64,000 nucleotides of DNA. Source: Verrucomicrobiota bacterium. GTDB taxonomy: Bacteria > Verrucomicrobiota > Verrucomicrobiia > Limisphaerales > JACQFS01. The DNA is taken from positions 1-64,000 of the forward strand of contig JACQFS010000015.1 of NCBI GenBank assembly GCA_016199935.1. The letters run 5' to 3'. Positions 17,774-63,760 of this stretch are shown piece by piece; position 1 is the first letter of the stretch; each line of letters begins with the position of its first letter. The notes beneath the pieces are model-generated. The model saw nothing but the letters and a program-made list of their open reading frames with translations, had not been told where the DNA came from and did no database searches. The position numbers and the translations under genes were made by a program.

Positions 17774-20700
17774 TCACGGCTTCGCGTCCTCGACTGTCAC
17801 GCGCACCTCGGCGCCGTTGCAGCGGATCTCGGGCACATACATCGCGTGGCCCAGAACCGGCAGCGCGTGGAACTGGCCGGGCACTTCGGCGCGGAAGTCG
17901 TAGCGGATTTCCCAGACGCCTTCGGGGAGCTTGTCCACAAACATCGCCACCTTGCGGTCGCGGAGTTCCTGATAGACCCAGCGCGAGCGGCCGGTGAAAT
18001 CCGTGTCCGACATCAGCACCGGGCGCGGCAGGCCGACGGGCGCGATGCCACCGATGCGGCGTGCGGCTCCGCCACCCTTCTTCTTCGAGGGCGCGACCTG
18101 CGGTGCGGCGGCGGCGGGTTTGGCCGCGCTGAATTTTCTTTCGACCGCGCCGCTCTTCATTTCACGCGCGTAGAGCGATTCGCCGCTGCGGATTTCCACG
18201 GCCTCGAAGCCGGCGGGCTTGAGGTCCTCGAAGAGCAGATACTCGTAGTTGTTCTTCGTCTCGACGGTCAGCACGGTCTCGATGCGCTCGCCGCTTTTCA
18301 CGCTCTCGCCGTCCTTGAGCGGCACCTTGTCATAGACGAAGCCCTTCAAGAGCGTCGGGCGGCCGACGAGTTTGTAATACTCGCGCTTCACGAAGATTTC
18401 GTTGCCGGCGGGCGTGATGGGTTCTTCGAGGCTGAAAAACTTCGCCTCGGCCGCAAAGTAAACCGCGCCGTCGCCGTTGCGCTTGATGCGGATTTCGTTC
18501 GCGCCGTCCTTGATGAGCTTCGGGTCCACGGTGAAACGGCTCGGAGCATTGAACACGTCCGCGCCGCTGACCTTGCGGTCGGCCACCTTCGAGCCGTTGA
18601 CGAACACGCTGAACTCCAACTCCGGCTTCAGCTCGCCGCTCACCTTGAGGTAATCGTTCATCGCGAGGACGACGATGGCGGTGTCGCGCGTGTTGCTCCA
18701 CTGCGCGCCGCGGCGGTTCTTGATGAGCCAGTTGGTGACCGGTTCGATGAGCGGGTTCTTCGGGTCAATCGTCAGCAGCGCGCGCAACGCAAACGCCGTC
18801 GCCTCCACGCCGCCGTCGGACCAGCGCCAATACACGCCGTCCTCGCCCCAATGCGCGGTGCCCATCACGCCCTTGTTCGCGGGCGCGGTGCCGCCGATGA
18901 GCACGCTCGCATCCGGTCGCTCGTCGCGCTTCACGCCGTTCTCCAGATTTTCGATGAGCGTCTTGGCTTTCGTCTTGTAGTCTGTCTCGTCAAAACTGAA
19001 ATAGTGGGCGCTTAAGGCCAGCAAGGCTCTAGTGTAAGCGTTCAGCCTTTCTCGATTAGCCCAGAGATTTTCAAATGCTTTCGCTTGGAATTGTGGAACG
19101 TGACGCTCCTGGCTGCGCACGCGCTCGCGAGACAGCGAAAGCGCGTGCAGCATCCACGCCTGCATGTCGGGATTCAATTCTTCCTCGACGAGCGTCTTGT
19201 CGAGGAAGCTCGCGCCTCGTTCAAGGACGTTGCCTTTGATTTCCACGCCGGTCTGCTTGGCAAGCGTGAGGCCCCACACGACGTAAGCGGTCATCCAACG
19301 GTCGCTGTCGCCGGGTTTCCACCAGCCCCAGCCGCCGTCGCCGTGCTGGAAATCGTAGAGGCGTTCGAGGCCGGCCTTCACCATTTCGTCGAGCTTGGCC
19401 AAATCCTTTTTCCCCTTGGGTTGAGTGGCTTTCACGTTCGCCGGCTCGATGCCGCCGAAGACGCGGCCCATCACGTCCTCGGGCGCGAGGCCGAGGTCGC
19501 GCAGCGTCTTTGCGGTGATGGCGGCGGGGAGGAAACGGCTCATCGTCTGCTCGGTGCAGCCGTAGGGGTAATCAATCAGGTAGGGCAACGCATCGAGCAT
19601 CGTGACGGCGAGGCTCGGCGTGACCTGCACGGTGAGCGTGGTGGACTCGGGCTTGCGCGCCTGCGGAATGTCGAGCTTCACGGTGATGTCGTTGCCGCGG
19701 ACCTTGCCGGCCTTGGTGATGAACTTCTCGATGCCGTGTTCGTGCGCGACGTAAGTCTTCTCCATCGCGTCGGAAAACTTCCCGCCGCGCCCGGTGACTT
19801 TGAGTTTCGCTTCGCCCGGAGATTTCACGATGGCCTTCCAATCCGCGCGCGCCTCGCTGTTCGCGGGGACTTTGAGTAGCGCAGGCTTCCAGCCTGCGGG
19901 TTTCGCGGCATCCTGCCGCGAGTCAACTGGCAGCAAGATGCTGCCAGAACCCGCAGGCAGGGATGCCTGCGCTACGTTGGTCGAGTCCAGCGTCACCTTC
20001 ACCTCCATCGCCTCGTCGGTGTTGTTGTTCACGACGGCGCTTAACACAACCTCATCCCCCACGACAAAAAAGCGCGGAGCCTGGAGGCGGACGATGAGCG
20101 GTTGCTTGGTGCGCGTGTTGGTGCTCGCGAGGCCGAACTGATTTCCGACGCTGACGGCGCGCGCGGTGGCCTTCCAGCCGGTGAGGGAGTCGGGATACTT
20201 CACCTTCACGATGGCCGTCCCTTTGGCGTCGGTCTTCAAGTCGGGCTGCCAGAGAATCGTGGAGCGGAAATCAGAGCGCACCACGACGGCGGGTTCTTGG
20301 CTGGCCCGTCCTTCGCCGAGTTGCATCTCGGATCTTTTGTCGGACATGCCCTTCATCAACTGCCGGTTCGCTCCCATTGGCGCGCTCGCTGGCATCGCTC
20401 CGCGCGCGAGCATTCCACCCACGGCACTCATAGACTTCGCCGCCATTTCCATGGGTGCGGCCGCATCCATTGCGAGCACATTGGCATTGGCATAGCCGAA
20501 TTGGTCCTCCAGTCGCCCGTCATAAAGCCCATCACGGTCGAGTGACTCCAATTCCTCGCGTCCGCCCAACCCCGCCTGCCTCCGGCGCTTCCCGCTTTCA
20601 TCCGCCTCGCGCTCGTCGAACAACTCGTCCTTCTCGCCCTTCAACAGCTTCGCGTAGCTCTTCCAGTTCATCGTCGCCTGCATCTGGATCTGGTGCGGGC

Positions 20701-23700
20701 GCTTGGTGCCGTAGAAAAATTGCCGCGGGTCGCCGGCGTAATCGCTCTGGATGTAGAAGACCGATTCGTCCACAAGTCCGAACGCCACCTCAGCGGCGAC
20801 CGGTTTGCCGTCGTGGTCGCGCGTGGTGATGGTGAGCGTGCCTTCGTCGCGCGGCTGGTATTGGGCGCGATCAGGCTTCACGTCCACGGTGAGGAAATTT
20901 TTCGTCGGCGGCACCACGACCTGTTTCGTGTCGGTGAAAATCTGCCGGTCGGTCACGAGCGCCGCGCCGAGGAAAATGTTCGGCACGTGCTGCTCCGCGA
21001 TGTCTAGCTCGACGAGTTTCACCGTGCCGGTCACGTGGACAAGCTGGTAACTCATCAACTCCTCGGCCTCGGTGGTGAAGAGCACGTAACGGTCGGCGGT
21101 CGGTGTGACGAGCATCACCGGCGCGCGCTGGCCGACGCGGAACGTGTCCTGGTCCGCGATGATTTCCACGCCGCCGTGGCGGTAGCCGATTTCCGTCGTG
21201 GCGTTGTTCGCGACCCACACGGTCGTCTCGGCGCGGATGGGCTGCGGCGGGCGCTTGGGCGCAACGTCTTCGCTCAACCACGTCACGCGATAGTAGCCCT
21301 CGCGCTCCGGCGTGAAGGTGAACTCGCCCTTGCCATCGGCGTCGGTCTTCACGGTGAGCGTCTTGATTTCGTCGCGCTCGTAACCGCGGAATTTCAGCCG
21401 CCAATCCTTCTGGTCGGGACGCTCGGGCGCGGGCGGCCAGATTTTTTGCTGCGCCTGGAGCTTCTTCAGTTCGTCGCCCTTCACCTCGCGGCCGTCGGGC
21501 GCAATCCAGATTTCCCACCAATACTCGCGCAGCAATTTCACGATGCCCTCGGCGACGACGGGCTGCTCATTCGCGTCCTTGGCGGTAAACTCGATGCGCA
21601 CCTTGTCCTGCGGGCGGTAGAGATTGTGGTCGGGCCGCGCGAAAACGTAGTAGCGCTGCTGCGTGACGCGCACGGCGCCGTTGCCGGTGATTTCGCGCCG
21701 GCTCGAATCGGTCACGCGCGCCTCGACGCGATACTCGAAGTCCTGCCCGCCGCCCTTGGGCGTGTCGAAGGTGAGCGCGGCCTTGCCGGTCGCGTCGGTC
21801 TTGAGCGTCTCGCGCTTGATGATTTGCCCGCCGGCACCGCCGGGCCAGCGGCCGAAGCGGTTCACGGCTAGGTCCATGTCGTCGTAAAACCACGGGAAGT
21901 CGCGCGGTTGCGGGAAGTGCATCCAGAAGGGGTTTTGATAGACGAGCACCTCGACGCTCGCGTTGGCGACGGCGCCGCCGAAATAATAATCCGCCTGCAC
22001 GCTCACCTCGACGGTTTCGCCGAGGCGGAAGGCTTTTTTGCGCGGCTTGCCTTCGGCGGTCTTCTCCTCCGGCGTCTGCACGGTGACTTTGAATTCCGGC
22101 AGCTTGTATTCCTCCAACCGGAACAACTGCGCGTTGCCGATGTGCTGCTTGCGGCCCTCGTTCCAGAACTGGATTTGATATTCGCCGAGCGGCATCGCCT
22201 CGGTGAGTTCGAGCGCGCCCCACGCGCTGCCGAACGGGTTGAGCTTCGCCTTGTCGGCCTTCACCTTCGCGCCGCGCGGGTCGGTGATTTCAAACTCGAT
22301 GGTCGCGTCGCTCGGCGTGGAATAGACCGAGCCGTTGTAGCGGCGCGCGATGAACTTCCACTGCACCGTCTCCTTCGGGCGATACGCAGGCCGGTCGGTG
22401 AAGGCGTAAATCTTCCAACGCTCGAACTCGGCGCGGCCCCAGTAACTGTTGCCCAAGCTGAACGCCTGCCGGTCGGCAGTGATGGCGGCGGCGAAGAGTT
22501 CCAGATTGTTGTTCGCCGGGCGCGACAACTCGAACACCGCGATGCCGTCGGCGTTGACCTCCTTCTCCGACTCGCGCGACTGCCAGCGTTTGCCGTCGTG
22601 CCAGCGTTCCCAGAGCTTCACCTTGCCCTCGCGCTGCGGCGAGGAGTTGAGCGCGTTGCAGAAATAGATGAGCGCCTGCTTGCCGGAAGTTTTCAGCACG
22701 AGCGCCGAGTCGGTCACGAGCACAATGTCGCGCGCCGACTTGCCGCCACCGCGCGCTTCGAGGATGTAGGCGCCGGGCTTGAGTTTTTGTTCGAGGCGCA
22801 GCGACGCATTGCCGGGCTGGTAATCCTTCTTGTCCTTCGTGTCGTGCGACCACTCCTTCAACTTCTCGCGGCCCGCGAGGTCAATGGAGGTGAGCCAGTC
22901 GGTGCGGCGCTTCTCGTCAATGTTCGCGAGGCTCACGTCCTTCGCGAGGGCCACCGGGTAGAGCGCGAGTTCGATGCGACCGACGTTGCGCCAGTTGAGG
23001 TGATATTGAACTTCCGAGTCCGGCAGAAAAAAATGTGAGACGCTCACGCCGACCTGTTCGTCCGTGATGTTTTTGATTTGCTGCTGCGCCTGCTCGAAGT
23101 AGCGCGTCTCGCCCTTCTTGAACTCCGTAACGAGGCGGCGGAAGAGTTCGAGCGCCTTCACGAAATCCGGCTCGTTGCGCCAGCCGCCGTCCTTGAGCGG
23201 CACGACGCGGCCCTGATTCATCATCCACTCGGCGTATTGGTAGAGCGCGTCGTCATACCATTCGGTCTTCTGTCCAAGCTTCACCGCCGCCTCGAACTCC
23301 TCCGGCACACGCGCGCGCTGCTCCCAATCGCCGCCCTGCTGCTGGATGGTCCGCGCGAGCAGGTAGTGCGCGTGCGCCTGGTCGTTTTCGGTCTGCGCAA
23401 TCTTCAGCGCGTTCTCGGCGATGGGGAGCGGGAGGATGTTGCCGTAATTTCCGAAGTAGTAATTGCGCGCTTGGATGCCCGGCGGCCGCTCGATGCGCCA
23501 CACGATGCCGAGGTAACGCCCGCGCGCCGTCTCGAGGTCGCGCGCACCCGCCCACCACTCGAGCGCGTTCTGATAAAACGGCCAAGCCCCACCCCAGTTC
23601 TGCTGATTGCGCCGCGTCCACCAAAAATCCCCGAGCGACTCCTGCACCTCGACCCACACGCGGTCCTTGTCTTCCGTGCGCTGAATGTCGCGCACCATTT

Positions 23701-23989
23701 TGTCCAGCGCATCGCGAGCCGCATCGAGTTTCGTCGTGTCCGCCCGCTGCGTGCTGGCTTCCGAGCGCCACGCCGTATCCAAGAGGCGGAACTGCACCCA
23801 GCGCTGCTCGGCGGGCGGGAGATTGGTGACGACGATTTTCGCATAAGCTTCACGCGCCTTCGCAAACGACTTCTCGGCAAAGAGCCGCTCGCCTTCGGCC
23901 TTGAGCGAGTCGTAATCGCTGAGTTGTGCGTGAAGCGAGGCGGTGAAGAAAGTGGCCGCAAGCGCGGCGAGCAGGAGACGAAGTTTCAT
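17774..23989 (-). CDS. bacterial alpha-2-macroglobulin family protein with thioester
   Basis: 2071 residues. ATG 23989 gives signal peptide MKLRLLLAALAATFFTASLH, with no lipobox Cys, so it is probably soluble in the periplasm (a TTG two codons upstream is also possible). Residues 20-300 are helical and rich in Trp and Gln. MG-type beta domains follow (AYRPKETVQWKF, VFARPDHNLYRPQDKVRIEF), then the central A2M domain (STILWQPDLKTDAKGTA). The thioester motif GCTEQ has its Cys at 1478, inside LIDYPYGCTEQTMSRF, followed by alpha-toroid repeats (GGWGWWKPGDSD) and a receptor-binding-like C-terminus. The family traps proteases. It is longer than E. coli YfhM (about 1650), and no pbpC neighbour is present. 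A palindromic repeat is inserted in frame at residues about 1338-1372. Confidence 0.93.
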   Translation of the reverse strand: MKLRLLLAALAATFFTASLHAQLSDYDSLKAEGERLFAEKSFAKAREAYAKIVVTNLPPAEQRWVQFRLLDTAWRSEASTQRADTTKLDAARDALDKMVRDIQRTEDKDRVWVEVQESLGDFWWTRRNQQNWGGAWPFYQNALEWWAGARDLETARGRYLGIVWRIERPPGIQARNYYFGNYGNILPLPIAENALKIAQTENDQAHAHYLLARTIQQQGGDWEQRARVPEEFEAAVKLGQKTEWYDDALYQYAEWMMNQGRVVPLKDGGWRNEPDFVKALELFRRLVTEFKKGETRYFEQAQQQIKNITDEQVGVSVSHFFLPDSEVQYHLNWRNVGRIELALYPVALAKDVSLANIDEKRRTDWLTSIDLAGREKLKEWSHDTKDKKDYQPGNASLRLEQKLKPGAYILEARGGGKSARDIVLVTDSALVLKTSGKQALIYFCNALNSSPQREGKVKLWERWHDGKRWQSRESEKEVNADGIAVFELSRPANNNLELFAAAITADRQAFSLGNSYWGRAEFERWKIYAFTDRPAYRPKETVQWKFIARRYNGSVYSTPSDATIEFEITDPRGAKVKADKAKLNPFGSAWGALELTEAMPLGEYQIQFWNEGRKQHIGNAQLFRLEEYKLPEFKVTVQTPEEKTAEGKPRKKAFRLGETVEVSVQADYYFGGAVANASVEVLVYQNPFWMHFPQPRDFPWFYDDMDLAVNRFGRWPGGAGGQIIKRETLKTDATGKAALTFDTPKGGGQDFEYRVEARVTDSSRREITGNGAVRVTQQRYYVFARPDHNLYRPQDKVRIEFTAKDANEQPVVAEGIVKLLREYWWEIWIAPDGREVKGDELKKLQAQQKIWPPAPERPDQKDWRLKFRGYERDEIKTLTVKTDADGKGEFTFTPEREGYYRVTWLSEDVAPKRPPQPIRAETTVWVANNATTEIGYRHGGVEIIADQDTFRVGQRAPVMLVTPTADRYVLFTTEAEELMSYQLVHVTGTVKLVELDIAEQHVPNIFLGAALVTDRQIFTDTKQVVVPPTKNFLTVDVKPDRAQYQPRDEGTLTITTRDHDGKPVAAEVAFGLVDESVFYIQSDYAGDPRQFFYGTKRPHQIQMQATMNWKSYAKLLKGEKDELFDEREADESGKRRRQAGLGGREELESLDRDGLYDGRLEDQFGYANANVLAMDAAAPMEMAAKSMSAVGGMLARGAMPASAPMGANRQLMKGMSDKRSEMQLGEGRASQEPAVVVRSDFRSTILWQPDLKTDAKGTAIVKVKYPDSLTGWKATARAVSVGNQFGLASTNTRTKQPLIVRLQAPRFFVVGDEVVLSAVVNNNTDEAMEVKVTLDSTNVAQASLPAGSGSILLPVDSRQDAAKPAGWKPALLKVPANSEARADWKAIVKSPGEAKLKVTGRGGKFSDAMEKTYVAHEHGIEKFITKAGKVRGNDITVKLDIPQARKPESTTLTVQVTPSLAVTMLDALPYLIDYPYGCTEQTMSRFLPAAITAKTLRDLGLAPEDVMGRVFGGIEPANVKATQPKGKKDLAKLDEMVKAGLERLYDFQHGDGGWGWWKPGDSDRWMTAYVVWGLTLAKQTGVEIKGNVLERGASFLDKTLVEEELNPDMQAWMLHALSLSRERVRSQERHVPQFQAKAFENLWANRERLNAYTRALLALSAHYFSFDETDYKTKAKTLIENLENGVKRDERPDASVLIGGTAPANKGVMGTAHWGEDGVYWRWSDGGVEATAFALRALLTIDPKNPLIEPVTNWLIKNRRGAQWSNTRDTAIVVLAMNDYLKVSGELKPELEFSVFVNGSKVADRKVSGADVFNAPSRFTVDPKLIKDGANEIRIKRNGDGAVYFAAEAKFFSLEEPITPAGNEIFVKREYYKLVGRPTLLKGFVYDKVPLKDGESVKSGERIETVLTVETKNNYEYLLFEDLKPAGFEAVEIRSGESLYAREMKSGAVERKFSAAKPAAAAPQVAPSKKKGGGAARRIGGIAPVGLPRPVLMSDTDFTGRSRWVYQELRDRKVAMFVDKLPEGVWEIRYDFRAEVPGQFHALPVLGHAMYVPEIRCNGAEVRVTVEDAKP
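19876..19976. repeat. palindromic repeat inside the alpha-2-macroglobulin gene, family D copy 1
   Basis: Arms start GTAGCGCAGGCTTCCAGCCT on the left and end GGGATGCCTGCGCTACG on the right, about 28 bp each with a second small palindrome between (GCAGCAAGATGCTGC). The element is translated in frame as residues reading AQASLPAGSGSILL and PAGWKPALL. An intergenic relative lies at 63644-63760. Confidence 0.85.
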
Positions 23990-24132
23990 AAGCAATGTCG
24001 CCCAGTTGGACGGGACGGCCGGAAGATTACTCCCGTGAACTGCGGCGTGTCACGACAGGAGCGTGACCGGCCCGCGCGCTGACCGGCGTCGAAGGGCTGG
24101 CAATCCATTGCTCGCTCGCTAGACTCGGGCGC

Positions 24133-29323: not shown

Positions 29324-29944
29324 ATGCAACCCTGGCTCGAATATCTCGCCGTCGCCGTGTGCGCCATCTCGGGCGCGCTCGCGGCGGCGGGCAAGCGGCT
29401 CGATCTTTTCGGCGTCATCGTGCTCGCGGTCGTGACGGCGGTGGGCGGCGGGACGATTCGCGACCTGTGCCTCGGCGCGAAGCCGGTGTTCTGGATCGAG
29501 AACCCCAGCCTCATCGTCGTCGCCACGCTCACCGCGCTCGCCACGTTCGTCGTCGCGCGCTTCTGGACGATGCCGCAGCGCGCGTTGCTCGTGGCGGATG
29601 CGTTCGGCCTCGCGCTCTTCACCATCGCTGGCACGGAGAAATCGCTGCTGCTCCAAACCTCCGGTGTCATCGCCGTCATGCTCGGCGTGATCACGGGCGT
29701 CGCGGGCGGCGTTTTGCGCGACGTGTTGCGGCGCGAGGTGCCGCTCGTGTTCCAGCCGGAGATCTACCTTTATGCGACGGCGGCATTTTGCGGGGCCACT
29801 GCGTTCGTGACGCTCGACAAGTTTTTCCCGGACTCGCCCGCCAACCGGCTCATCGCGATGGCGCTCATACTCAGCCTGCGCCTCGCGGCGATGTGGTGGA
29901 AGCTACGGTTGCCCGTGTTCAAATCGCGCGACGGGCAGACATGA
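29324..29944 (+). CDS. TRIC-family cation channel (UPF0126/YadS-like)
   Basis: 206 residues. Two repeats of three helices each carry the glycine-rich hallmarks AVGGGTIRDL and GVAGGVLRDV. ISGALAAAGKR in the first helix is also diagnostic. In characterised members this is a trimeric, K+-permeable channel of the inner membrane. The ATG at 29324 is chosen for the classical N-terminus; a GTG at 29291 that overlaps the previous stop is an alternative and would add 11 residues. The stop overlaps the putA ATG (ATGA). Confidence 0.85.
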   Translation: MQPWLEYLAVAVCAISGALAAAGKRLDLFGVIVLAVVTAVGGGTIRDLCLGAKPVFWIENPSLIVVATLTALATFVVARFWTMPQRALLVADAFGLALFTIAGTEKSLLLQTSGVIAVMLGVITGVAGGVLRDVLRREVPLVFQPEIYLYATAAFCGATAFVTLDKFFPDSPANRLIAMALILSLRLAAMWWKLRLPVFKSRDGQT

Positions 29945-32900
29945 AACCGCTTTGCGACCAGAGCTTGATTGATCGCGCCGTCGAACTCGCACGCGTGCTC
30001 CAGCAGCGCGCGGGTGAATTGCAGACGCCCGCCGAGCGCCGCCAGCAGGCCGAACTGGACCGCATGCTCCAGACGCCCGCCGACAAGGCCACGCTCGTCC
30101 AGCTCACCGACCAGGCGTTTCGCTCGCGCCAGTCCGCGCGCGTGGCGGAGCAGTTCACGCACATCCTCGACGTGCAGGGCGTGCCGCGCTTTTTTAATCC
30201 GCTCGACCGCGCGCTCATGCGCGGCTTCCAAACTTTCGGCGCGTGGCTCCCCGGCGTCGCCGTGCCGCTCGTGAAGGAGCACATGCGCCACGAGACCGCG
30301 AATGTCGTCCTGCCCGCTGAGACCGAGCACCTCACGCGGCACTTGCGCGAACGCAGCGCCGAGGGCGTGCGGATGAACCTGAATTTTCTCGGCGAGGCGT
30401 TGCTCGGCGAGGAGGAGGCCGGGCATCGGCTGGAAAAATATCTCGCCGCGCTGCAACTCCCCGAGGTCGAGGTGCTGTCGGTGAAAATCTCGACGCTCTT
30501 TTCCCAAATCAATCCGCTCGCGCGCGAGCACACCTTGCGCGTGCTGTGCGAGCGGCTCGAACTGCTCTACCGCGCGGCGGACCGGGCGCGGTTTGCACTC
30601 AGTAGTGGCACAGGCGTCCCGCCTGTGAGTGGCAATCCCGACATTGCTCAGAAGGTTTCTGTGGACAGGCAGGATGCTTGTCCCACGATCGCGAAGTTTG
30701 TCTATCTCGACATGGAGGAATACCGCGATCTCTCGCTCACCGCCGAGGCGTTCATGCGCACGCTCGACCGGCGCGGCCTGGAGCAGGTGCGCGCCGGCAT
30801 CGCGTTGCAGGCTTACATTCCCGACAGCGCCCGCGTGCAGCGCACCATCAACGACTGGGCGCGCAAACGCGTCGCGCGCGGCGGTTCGCCCGTCACCATC
30901 CGAATCGTGAAAGGCGCGAACATGGAGATGGAACGCGTCGAGGCGTCGCTGCGCGACTGGCCGCAGGCGCCCTTCAAACGCAAGGTCGAGACCGACGCGA
31001 ACTACAAGCGGATGCTCGTCGAGGCGATGCGCCCGGAAAATCTGGCCGCCGTCCGCGTCGGCGTCGCGTCGCACAATCTTTTTGATCTCGCCTTCGGCCT
31101 CGTCCTCGCCGCCGAAGCGGATGCGGGCGACCACGTGCAATTCGAGATGCTCGAAGGCATGGCGAATCATCAACGCCGCGCGTTGCTGGAACATTCGCGC
31201 AACCTCTTGCTCTACGCGCCCGCGTGTCGCCGCGAGGAATTCCTCAACGCCATCGGCTACCTCATCCGCCGCCTCGACGAGAACACCGGCCCGGACAATT
31301 TCCTCCGCCACGCCTTCAGGCTCACGGTGGATTCGCCCGACTGGCACCAACTGGAGGGCGGTTTCCGCGAAGCTTTCACGGCGGAAACCTCCGACGCGCC
31401 GCGTCGCACGCAGGATCGGAGCACCGAGCGCTTTGACTCGCCCGTCGCCGAGATGTCGCTCAGCAACTTCCGCAACGAGCCGGATACCGATTGGTCGCTG
31501 CCGCAAAACAGCGCGTGGGCTGAGCAACTTGTCGCGCGTAAGGAACCCAGCACGCCCCGTATCCCGTGCGTTGTCGCGGGCGAGGAACTTCAGCCTGAGT
31601 CGCAGGCTGGCGTATGCACCGACCCGTCACGACCGGGTGTTGAACTTGCCCGCTACCGTCTGGGCACGGAAGCCGATGTGAACCGCACCGTCGCCTGCGC
31701 GAAGGCCGATCCCGGTGGCTGGCGTGCGATGAGCGTGGACACGCGCAGCGCCGTGCTCGGTCGCGTGGCGGAGGAACTCCGCCGGGCGCGCGGCGAGCTG
31801 ATGTGGACCGCGCTCGCCAATGGCGGGAAGATTCTTTCCGAGAGCGATCCCGAAGTGAGCGAGGCGGTGGACTTCGTGGAGTTCTACCGCGCCAGCGCTC
31901 GCACGTTCTTCGAATGGCCCGGCTTGCGTGCCGAGCCGCGCGGCGTGGTTGTGGTGGTTCCACCGTGGAATTTTCCCATCGCGATTCCGTGTGGCGGAAT
32001 CGCGGCGGCGCTCGCGGCGGGCAACACCGTCATCCTCAAGCCCGCGTCCGACACGGTGCTCATCGCATGGGAGCTGTGCCAGTGCTTCTGGCGTGCGGGC
32101 GTGCCGAGGACGGCGCTGCAATTCCTCCCGTGCCCCGGCGGCGGCGCGGGCGCGAAGCTTGTCGCGCATCCCGACGTGGACGCCGTGATCCTCACCGGCG
32201 GCACTGCGACGGCGCAGCGGATGCTCGACGCGAAACCTTCGCTGCATCTCTTCGCCGAGACGGGCGGCAAGAACGCCACCATCGTCACCGCGCTCAGCGA
32301 CCGCGAACTCGCCATCAAGCACGTCGTCCACAGCGCGTTCAGTCATAGCGGACAGAAATGTTCCGCCACGTCGCTGCTGCTGCTGGAGGCGGAGGTTTAC
32401 GACGACCCGCAATTCAAGCGGATGCTCTGCGACGCAGTGAAAAGTTTGAACGTCGGCAGCGCGTGGGATTTGCCCACGCGCGTCGGTCCGTGCATCCGTC
32501 CGCCTAGTGGTGATCTCGAAACCACGGAGTTCTTCGGCCCCGTGCTCGGCGTGATGCGCTTCGAGCGGCTGGAGGACGCTATCGAGATGGTCAACGCGAC
32601 CGGCTACGAACTCACGAGCGCGATCCACAGTCTCGACGACCGCGAGATTAAATTGTGGAAGTCACGCGTGCGCGCCGGAAACCTCTACATCAACCGCGGC
32701 ACCACGGGCGCGGTCGTGTTGCGCCAGCCGTTCGGCGGGATGGGGAAGAGCTGCTTCGGCGCGGGCATGAAAGCGGGCGGGCCGAATTACGTGGCGCAGT
32801 TCATGAGGTTCGCCGAATCGGATACGAACGCGGTGGAGAACTCCCCGCTTGCGAATCAGGATTTGGAATCGCTGCGTCTTGGGCTGCTTAATTCTTCAGA

Positions 32901-33480
32901 AGAGAAAATTAGAGTCTCGCCACCTCGACTCCTGCGGGCGTTGGCCAGTTACGGACGCTGGTGGCGCGAGGAATTCGGCGGCAAACACGATCACCTTCGA
33001 TTGCTGGGGCAGGACAATTTGCGGCGCTATCTGCCGTTTCGCTCGGTTCACCTGCGGGTCAACCGCGAGGATTCACTTTTTGAAATCATCGCCCGCGTGG
33101 CGGCCGCGCGAGCAACCGGCGCGCGGGTGATTGTCTCCCATTCGTCTGACACCGATTCGGCTGCCATCAAACTGCTCGAACAACTCACCGACTCGTGGGC
33201 CGCCGGCATCGAATTCGTCGAGGAGACAGATGCGCAACTCGCCGCCGCCATCCGCGAGGGACACGTGGAGCGCATCCGCACGGCGGGTCCGGGGCGTGTG
33301 AGCGAGGAAATGCTGCGCGCGGCGGCGGAGCATTTCGTCCACGTGGCGAGCGAGCCGGTGCTTGCCGAAGGACGCGTGGAGTTGCTCTGGTATCTGCGCG
33401 AACAAAGCGTCAGCTTTGATTATCACCGTTACGGAAACCTTGGCAGCCGCGCCGGTGAAGCGCGCCGCGAGCCGGAATGA
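29941..33480 (+). CDS. putA: bifunctional proline dehydrogenase / P5C dehydrogenase, with an ALDH deletion
   Basis: 1179 residues. Residues about 100-480 are the FAD-dependent PRODH barrel (FLGEALLGEEEAGHRLEKYL, RIVKGANMEMERV, VGVASHNLFDLA). Residues about 560-960 are an ALDH domain with PPWNFPIAIPCG, catalytic E773 (FAETGGKNA) and C807 (SGQKCSATS), and FFGPVLGVMRF. Together they would turn proline into glutamate. Two oddities: between RVGPCIRPPSGDLE and TTEFFGPV about 40-50 residues usual for ALDHs are missing (near residue 858), so P5CDH activity is doubtful. Also, a palindromic repeat is read in frame at residues about 222-249. There is no N-terminal DNA-binding domain. The C-terminal 200 residues are a further conserved tail. 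Confidence 0.9.
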   Translation: MKPLCDQSLIDRAVELARVLQQRAGELQTPAERRQQAELDRMLQTPADKATLVQLTDQAFRSRQSARVAEQFTHILDVQGVPRFFNPLDRALMRGFQTFGAWLPGVAVPLVKEHMRHETANVVLPAETEHLTRHLRERSAEGVRMNLNFLGEALLGEEEAGHRLEKYLAALQLPEVEVLSVKISTLFSQINPLAREHTLRVLCERLELLYRAADRARFALSSGTGVPPVSGNPDIAQKVSVDRQDACPTIAKFVYLDMEEYRDLSLTAEAFMRTLDRRGLEQVRAGIALQAYIPDSARVQRTINDWARKRVARGGSPVTIRIVKGANMEMERVEASLRDWPQAPFKRKVETDANYKRMLVEAMRPENLAAVRVGVASHNLFDLAFGLVLAAEADAGDHVQFEMLEGMANHQRRALLEHSRNLLLYAPACRREEFLNAIGYLIRRLDENTGPDNFLRHAFRLTVDSPDWHQLEGGFREAFTAETSDAPRRTQDRSTERFDSPVAEMSLSNFRNEPDTDWSLPQNSAWAEQLVARKEPSTPRIPCVVAGEELQPESQAGVCTDPSRPGVELARYRLGTEADVNRTVACAKADPGGWRAMSVDTRSAVLGRVAEELRRARGELMWTALANGGKILSESDPEVSEAVDFVEFYRASARTFFEWPGLRAEPRGVVVVVPPWNFPIAIPCGGIAAALAAGNTVILKPASDTVLIAWELCQCFWRAGVPRTALQFLPCPGGGAGAKLVAHPDVDAVILTGGTATAQRMLDAKPSLHLFAETGGKNATIVTALSDRELAIKHVVHSAFSHSGQKCSATSLLLLEAEVYDDPQFKRMLCDAVKSLNVGSAWDLPTRVGPCIRPPSGDLETTEFFGPVLGVMRFERLEDAIEMVNATGYELTSAIHSLDDREIKLWKSRVRAGNLYINRGTTGAVVLRQPFGGMGKSCFGAGMKAGGPNYVAQFMRFAESDTNAVENSPLANQDLESLRLGLLNSSEEKIRVSPPRLLRALASYGRWWREEFGGKHDHLRLLGQDNLRRYLPFRSVHLRVNREDSLFEIIARVAAARATGARVIVSHSSDTDSAAIKLLEQLTDSWAAGIEFVEETDAQLAAAIREGHVERIRTAGPGRVSEEMLRAAAEHFVHVASEPVLAEGRVELLWYLREQSVSFDYHRYGNLGSRAGEARREPE
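30605..30690. repeat. palindromic repeat inside putA
   Basis: Left arm GTGGCACAGGCGTCCCGCCT and right arm ending AGGATGCTTGTCCCACG pair imperfectly over about 24 bases, with GC hairpins within each arm. Translated in frame as SGTGVPPVSG and DRQDACPT. It interrupts a stretch of the PRODH domain between RFALS and KFVYLDMEEY. Confidence 0.75.
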
Positions 33481-39712: not shown

Positions 39713-41611
<1,899 letters not shown>

Positions 41612-61833: not shown

Positions 61834-63588
<1,755 letters not shown>

Positions 63589-63643
63589 GGCGGTGGAGGT
63601 CGCGTTGAGGACGCCTGAAATCGGCGCGAACTTCAAGTGATTC

Positions 63644-63760
63644 ATGTAGGGCAGGCTTCCAGCCTGCCGGTTAGCCGGGCATCTTGCCCGGCGGTTTTGA
63701 AACGCGCGGACACGAGGCAGGATGCCTCGTGAACCGGCAGGCTGGAAGCCTGCCCTACAT
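63644..63760. repeat. 117-bp palindromic repeat between genes, family D copy 2
   Basis: Outer arms ATGTAGGGCAGGCTTCCAGC and its complement at 63731-63760 match perfectly over 29 bases. Nested units are CCGGGCATCTTGCCCGG and GAGGCAGGATGCCTC. It is the intergenic relative of the element in the alpha-2-macroglobulin gene (shared CAGGCTTCCAGCCTGC). Confidence 0.9.

Follow-up and report, generated by a model that had tools for sequence, protein, structure and literature searches.

The alpha-2-macroglobulin (A2M) gene of a Verrucomicrobiota genome carries a 100-bp palindrome that is very probably a non-autonomous mobile REP dimer, most likely moved by a RAYT transposase and lodged in frame in a loop of the protein predicted to be flexible. 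The gene lies in a stretch of 64,000 nucleotides, called the window below. A sequence-only reading had described a two-armed palindrome of about 100 bases in frame within A2M of a Verrucomicrobia-like genome, and both parts of that description were borne out: the palindrome occupies 19876–19975 (100 bp) of the ORF 17774–23995 on the minus strand, and the genome is Limisphaerales-like with a dispersed element in a protein gene.

The palindrome and its host gene

The features in the window are as follows.

17774–23995, minus strand: host gene, bacterial A2M, 2073 aa, open through the element (ORF, Pfam)
19876–19975, minus strand: whole element, head-head dimer of GTAG-tagged REPs, 100 bp, equal to A2M residues 1341–1374
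19876–19898, plus strand: first REP, GTAG tag and hairpin CGCAGGC-TTCCA-GCCTGCG (sequence, family alignment)
19903–19921, no strand assigned: inner hairpin TCGCGGC-ATCCT-GCCGCGA (sequence, fold)
19927–19947, no strand assigned: inner hairpin CTGGCAGC-AAGAT-GCTGCCAG (sequence, fold)
19952–19975, minus strand: second REP, inverted, hairpin CGCAGGC-AGGGAT-GCCTGCG and CTAC, which is GTAG on the minus strand (sequence)
30605–30686, plus strand: in-frame REP dimer, GTGG...CCAC, SGTGVPPVSGNPDIAQKVSVDRQDACPT, in the proline dehydrogenase part of bifunctional PutA (ORF 29359–33480, plus strand)
40820–40926, plus strand: four REP-like hairpins (GTGG/CCAC) clustered in frame within an ABC exporter (ORF 39713–41611, plus strand)
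63646–63758, no strand assigned: second copy of the same family (family 1), intergenic, arms of 45 nt at 89% (covariance model)

The sequence from 19876 to 19975 is an exact 100-bp palindrome, GTAG coming first and CTAC last, and its arms are 93% complementary. RNA folding gave –80.7 kcal/mol versus –45.2 kcal/mol in shuffled sequences (z –9.1), and on the minus strand the fold reached a z of –10.8 against shuffles. The element is translated as VAQASLPAGSGSILLPVDSRQDAAKPAGWKPALL; the in-frame stretch had thus been recognized correctly, but it corresponds to residues 1341–1374 instead of about 1338–1372.

Pfam domains found in the ORF are A2M, MG2, bMG10 and TED. With the A2M domain match running to residue 1336 and the thioester domain beginning at 1467, the insert sits just past the A2M match. 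In the AlphaFold model pLDDT falls below 50 for model residues 117–134 within the insert and is about 90 or above in the adjoining strands. The insert is therefore predicted to form a flexible loop between two beta-strands, its approximately 34 residues probably being unstructured. We propose that a flexible A2M loop of variable length, lying between two beta-strands past the A2M domain and ahead of the thioester domain, received the element or gave way to it in part. The insertion would have been tolerated or neutral with the A2M protein still working, and because the reading frame remained open the element would have been kept and translated as about 34 residues. As 100 bp is not a multiple of three, a clean addition of 33 or 34 codons is impossible without a change of 1–2 nt at the site, and a compensating change of this size is needed to hold the frame.

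A dispersed family of GTAG-tagged REP dimers

The window genome has at least 15 dispersed copies, this element among them. That it might occur only here had been named as grounds for rejecting the original reading, and this is not the case: the search suggested by the sequence-only reading was productive, with 14 genomic matches to the core 17-mer GCAGGCTTCCAGCCTGC and none to the reversed control. A covariance model search of the genome returned about 22 elements, which divide into 15 strong and about 7 weaker ones; the strong copies mostly measure 100–127 bp. The model was also matched in 63 of 116 genomes of the order. An initial consensus pattern for the second arm yielded mostly chance matches, with controls equally high. 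Among the weaker covariance model matches in the window genome we recognized a second family, GTAGCGCAGACTGGCAGTCTGC, and a third family, GTAGGGCGCGSTGTCCTCASCGCGCC, had 45 arm matches in this genome.

Ten full copies of family 1 were aligned and shared the layout GTAG-hairpin-GGTT-hairpin-spacer-hairpin-AACC-hairpin-CTAC, i.e. two inverted GTAG-tagged REP hairpins enclosing two inner hairpins. GTAG and CTAC are invariant in these ten copies, and GTGG variants occur among the others. The arm hairpins read either GGCAGGC-loop-GCCTGCC or CGCAGGC-loop-GCCTGCG, the C/G exchange being made jointly on both sides. The stem adjoining the tag has 7 bp and a loop of 5–6 nt, within the range of 6–13 bp for stems of GTAG REPs. 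Standard pairs were present in 96.2% of pair cells of the ten copies, with compensatory changes in 4 pairs (8 cells), while control partners slid by 1–3 columns paired in 31–45% of cells. Arm pairing, fold and covariation together describe an inverted head-head dimer able to fold as one long hairpin. A target-site duplication, a classical trait of MITEs, was not consistently seen when the 4-nt flanks of the ten copies were inspected.

The intergenic element at 63644–63760, whose arms had been said to match those of the A2M palindrome, is the second family-1 copy in the window and extends from 63646 to 63758. Its GTAG directly adjoins the ATG of a sulfatase ORF (61834–63645, minus strand), so that the element may lie in the leader of the gene or the true start may be located downstream. 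On another contig (C95, locus L014, 1496–1522) a copy consists of a single 27-bp GTAGGGCAGGCTTGAAGCCTGCCCTAC, apparently a dimer that collapsed through internal deletion.

Tag, stem-loops and inverted dimer match the published GTAG REPs, and the element is accordingly a GTAG-tagged REP dimer of the REPIN/BIME type with RPE-like behaviour, and not an RPE. With the GTAG REP dimers of Di Nocera et al. 2013 (PMC3733652) it has in common the GTAG tag, short stem-loops, the inverted dimer with GTAG outside, hairpins within the spacer, in-frame copies (encoding 20–30 aa in that study), a Verrucomicrobia host and REP-flanked RAYT genes; the comparison with the 24 GTAG REP families of that work covers their described anatomy, and the window-genome element differs in its four-hairpin unit. 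In-frame GTAG-REP dimers were reported there for the verrucomicrobium Opitutus terrae, which ranked first among the species for intragenic GTAG repeats; the paper also notes insertions at about the same site in recB from two Xanthomonas species (PMC3733652). Mobile palindromes in coding frames are thus already known, and the window element is a well-supported real instance. REPINs (Bertels and Rainey 2011, PMC3116915) likewise are REP doublets in inverted pairs that form a long hairpin and are tied to RAYTs; they are extragenic, whereas elements in the order studied here are found in coding frames as well. Coxiella QMITE1 and QMITE2 (PMC5896051) are also small mobile inverted repeats, QMITE1 overlapping ORFs and QMITE2 containing a GTAG REP, but they are longer and have direct repeats, while the window element lacks a consistent direct repeat.

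The palindrome had been compared with the RPEs of Rickettsia. The behaviour is indeed shared, as both are palindromes found in frame in many unrelated proteins, and one might accordingly think of a Rickettsia-type RPE that spread into Verrucomicrobia. We regard the chance of this as close to nil. RPEs carry CGTC ends, have no associated RAYT and belong to another lineage (PMC3733652), and the GTAG tag, the GTAG-REP stems and the repeat-flanked RAYT genes in the order speak against a kinship.

RAYT genes flanked by tagged hairpins

Single-stranded REP hairpins are the substrate cleaved by RAYTs, with GTAG serving in recognition (PMC8266576). The window genome contains four Y1-type transposase genes. 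One of them, on contig C16 (locus L063, 1472–2428), is RAYT-like, matching Y1_Tnp in its C-terminal part only, and has GTAG hairpins of family 2 on both sides; together with these REPs it is a candidate REPtron. No RAYT was seen adjoining a family-1 element in the window genome, the RAYT found there having family-2 flanks. In another genome of the order (G051) an exact family-1 arm, GTAGGGCAGGCTTCCAGCCTGCC, is present on both sides of a RAYT, and in two more (G033 and G099) the RAYT is flanked likewise, by related or family-2 arms.

Over 20 RAYT loci spanning 44 kb we counted 24 tagged hairpins, whereas A2M loci totalling 357 kb had 20, so that the density around the RAYTs is approximately tenfold higher; shuffled RAYT loci gave a mean of 1.0 compared with the 24. 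Under strict rules tagged hairpins were detected at only 7 of the 20 RAYT loci. From the flanking REPs we infer that the element is mobilised by a RAYT. Most likely an IS200/IS605-like RAYT would move it, acting on single-stranded DNA folded into hairpins.

The A2M loop and other loops in the order

Since searches at the family and genus level returned the window genome only, order-level relatives were compared. Public genomes and a set of 320 genomes of the order supplied the A2M orthologues. Anchored tblastn, used in place of a regular expression that had missed about half of them, let us read the loop at about 75 loci. Draft metagenome assemblies make up many of the genomes; for G002 and G211 the matching public records (JACRJY010000050 and DLMG01000151) show loops identical to those read from the assemblies.

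Most A2M orthologues have no palindrome, as the proposed comparison with close homologues had anticipated, but the closest homologue, G002, contains a REP of a different family. The flanks do not simply join without a gap as had been predicted, because the length of the loop varies among homologues. A near-identical empty A2M site was not found, given that this closest homologue carries another palindrome. A GTAG...CTAC palindrome is present at the A2M loop in five genomes: the window genome (G000), G002, G141, G081 and G211. All strong GTAG dimers in A2M loci (no more than 2 mismatches in 16) are located at this loop.

The loop palindrome of G002 belongs to a family whose arms match 45 times in the window genome and 5 times in G002 itself. 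G141, G081 and G211 hold yet another family at the loop, with 186 arm matches in G081, 71 in G002, 52 in G141 and 12 in G211; reversed controls of these arm searches gave no matches. The loop copies of the latter three genomes have nearly identical arms and related spacers, and a dispersed copy in G211 has the same type of spacer. A protein tree built from the flanks joins the window gene and that of G002 as sisters (support 98/93), and the two nevertheless have different REP families in the loop. Retention of the same insert in homologues had been named as evidence against the original reading, and only G010 shows it, in decayed form. Its insert is colinear with that of the window: 71 of 100 nt are identical and 32 of the 42 base pairs survive, shuffles reaching at most 27. 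On sequence comparison it is a decayed relative of a window-type copy. Shared descent of some of the loop inserts is possible, namely of those of the window and G010 and of those of G141, G081 and G211.

A single ancient insertion could in principle have been inherited, its arms diverging to different sequences with pairing retained. The colinear inserts of the window and G010, which are 64% identical over 50 residues including flanks, would agree with it. We consider this origin unlikely, as each loop palindrome matches its own dispersed family, for example with the 45 matches of the G002 type in G000 and the 186 of the G141 type in G081, which descent of one loop copy leaves unexplained. The very stable fold could alternatively mean that the palindrome is retained as an RNA hairpin regulating A2M translation or mRNA stability. 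This appears highly improbable given that most orthologues are devoid of it and given G010, which lost much of the pairing yet kept the coding frame.

Insertion of a mobile REP dimer, the reading we prefer, can be extended to a loop that is a true recurrent site of landing or replacement, where a RAYT would recognise resident REP DNA or a loop motif and newer REP families would replace older ones by insertion or conversion, so that the content of the loop turns over. The sister genes with different dispersed families, the further family in G141, G081 and G211, the decayed copy in register in G010 and the concentration of strong dimers at one loop in A2M, and likewise in PheS, are consistent with such a site. 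We put it forward tentatively and as somewhat doubtful: selection alone can yield the pattern by removing insertions at other places in the gene, and the junctions lie a few codons apart with no common target motif evident.

In-frame elements were not restricted to A2M. Solved PutA (5ux5) lacks the approximately 30 residues of the insert at 30605–30686, and the cluster at 40820–40926 lies between the membrane and ATPase domains of the exporter and is absent from solved homologues. Elsewhere in the window genome a 100-bp copy is in frame within HATPase_c of a histidine kinase (contig C18, locus L060, 1501–1608). Further in-frame elements were found in PheS of G002, ClpB of G104, MiaB of G075, HypF of G073 and HsdR of G059. 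The PheS insert falls between residues 162 and 164 of the solved enzyme 4p71. Among 13 genomes compared, several have a short PheS loop (G000, G010, G049, G072 and others), and the same loop is filled with different REP-like hairpins in G002, G141, G211 and G081. In-frame capture of mobile palindromes is thus widespread across the whole bacterial order and includes an essential tRNA synthetase.

We see about an even chance that particular surface loops of conserved proteins, those of A2M and PheS, are recurrent sites where mobile REP dimers from different families insert, remain in frame, degenerate and give way to others. If so, essential proteins of this Verrucomicrobia order continue to gain loop sequence from selfish palindromes, and the order seems to reuse selfish DNA in the loops of its proteins. 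For the A2M loop as a recurrent site of different REP families, and generally for different families of GTAG REP dimers at one loop in orthologues, we found no earlier report, and their recurrence in the same A2M and PheS loops is the part worth following. Orthologous loops can be compared in an empty, freshly filled, decayed or differently filled state, so that the alternative between neutral debris and raw material for protein evolution becomes testable. For annotation, AQASLPAGSG, PAGWKPAL and similar peptides in these proteins should be taken as translations of DNA repeats and not as domains. The REP-coded stretch of the window A2M was where a PheS query matched it weakly (E 4e-5).

Another repeat, CCCTCGCCCCCATCGGGGGAGAGGG, encoding peptides like SPPSGERAGVRG, was detected in the A2M loop of G168 and G076 (L185, L193) and in the PheS loop of G050 and G075 (L282, L286). 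As these are the same A2M and PheS loops, they also accept unrelated palindromic repeats.
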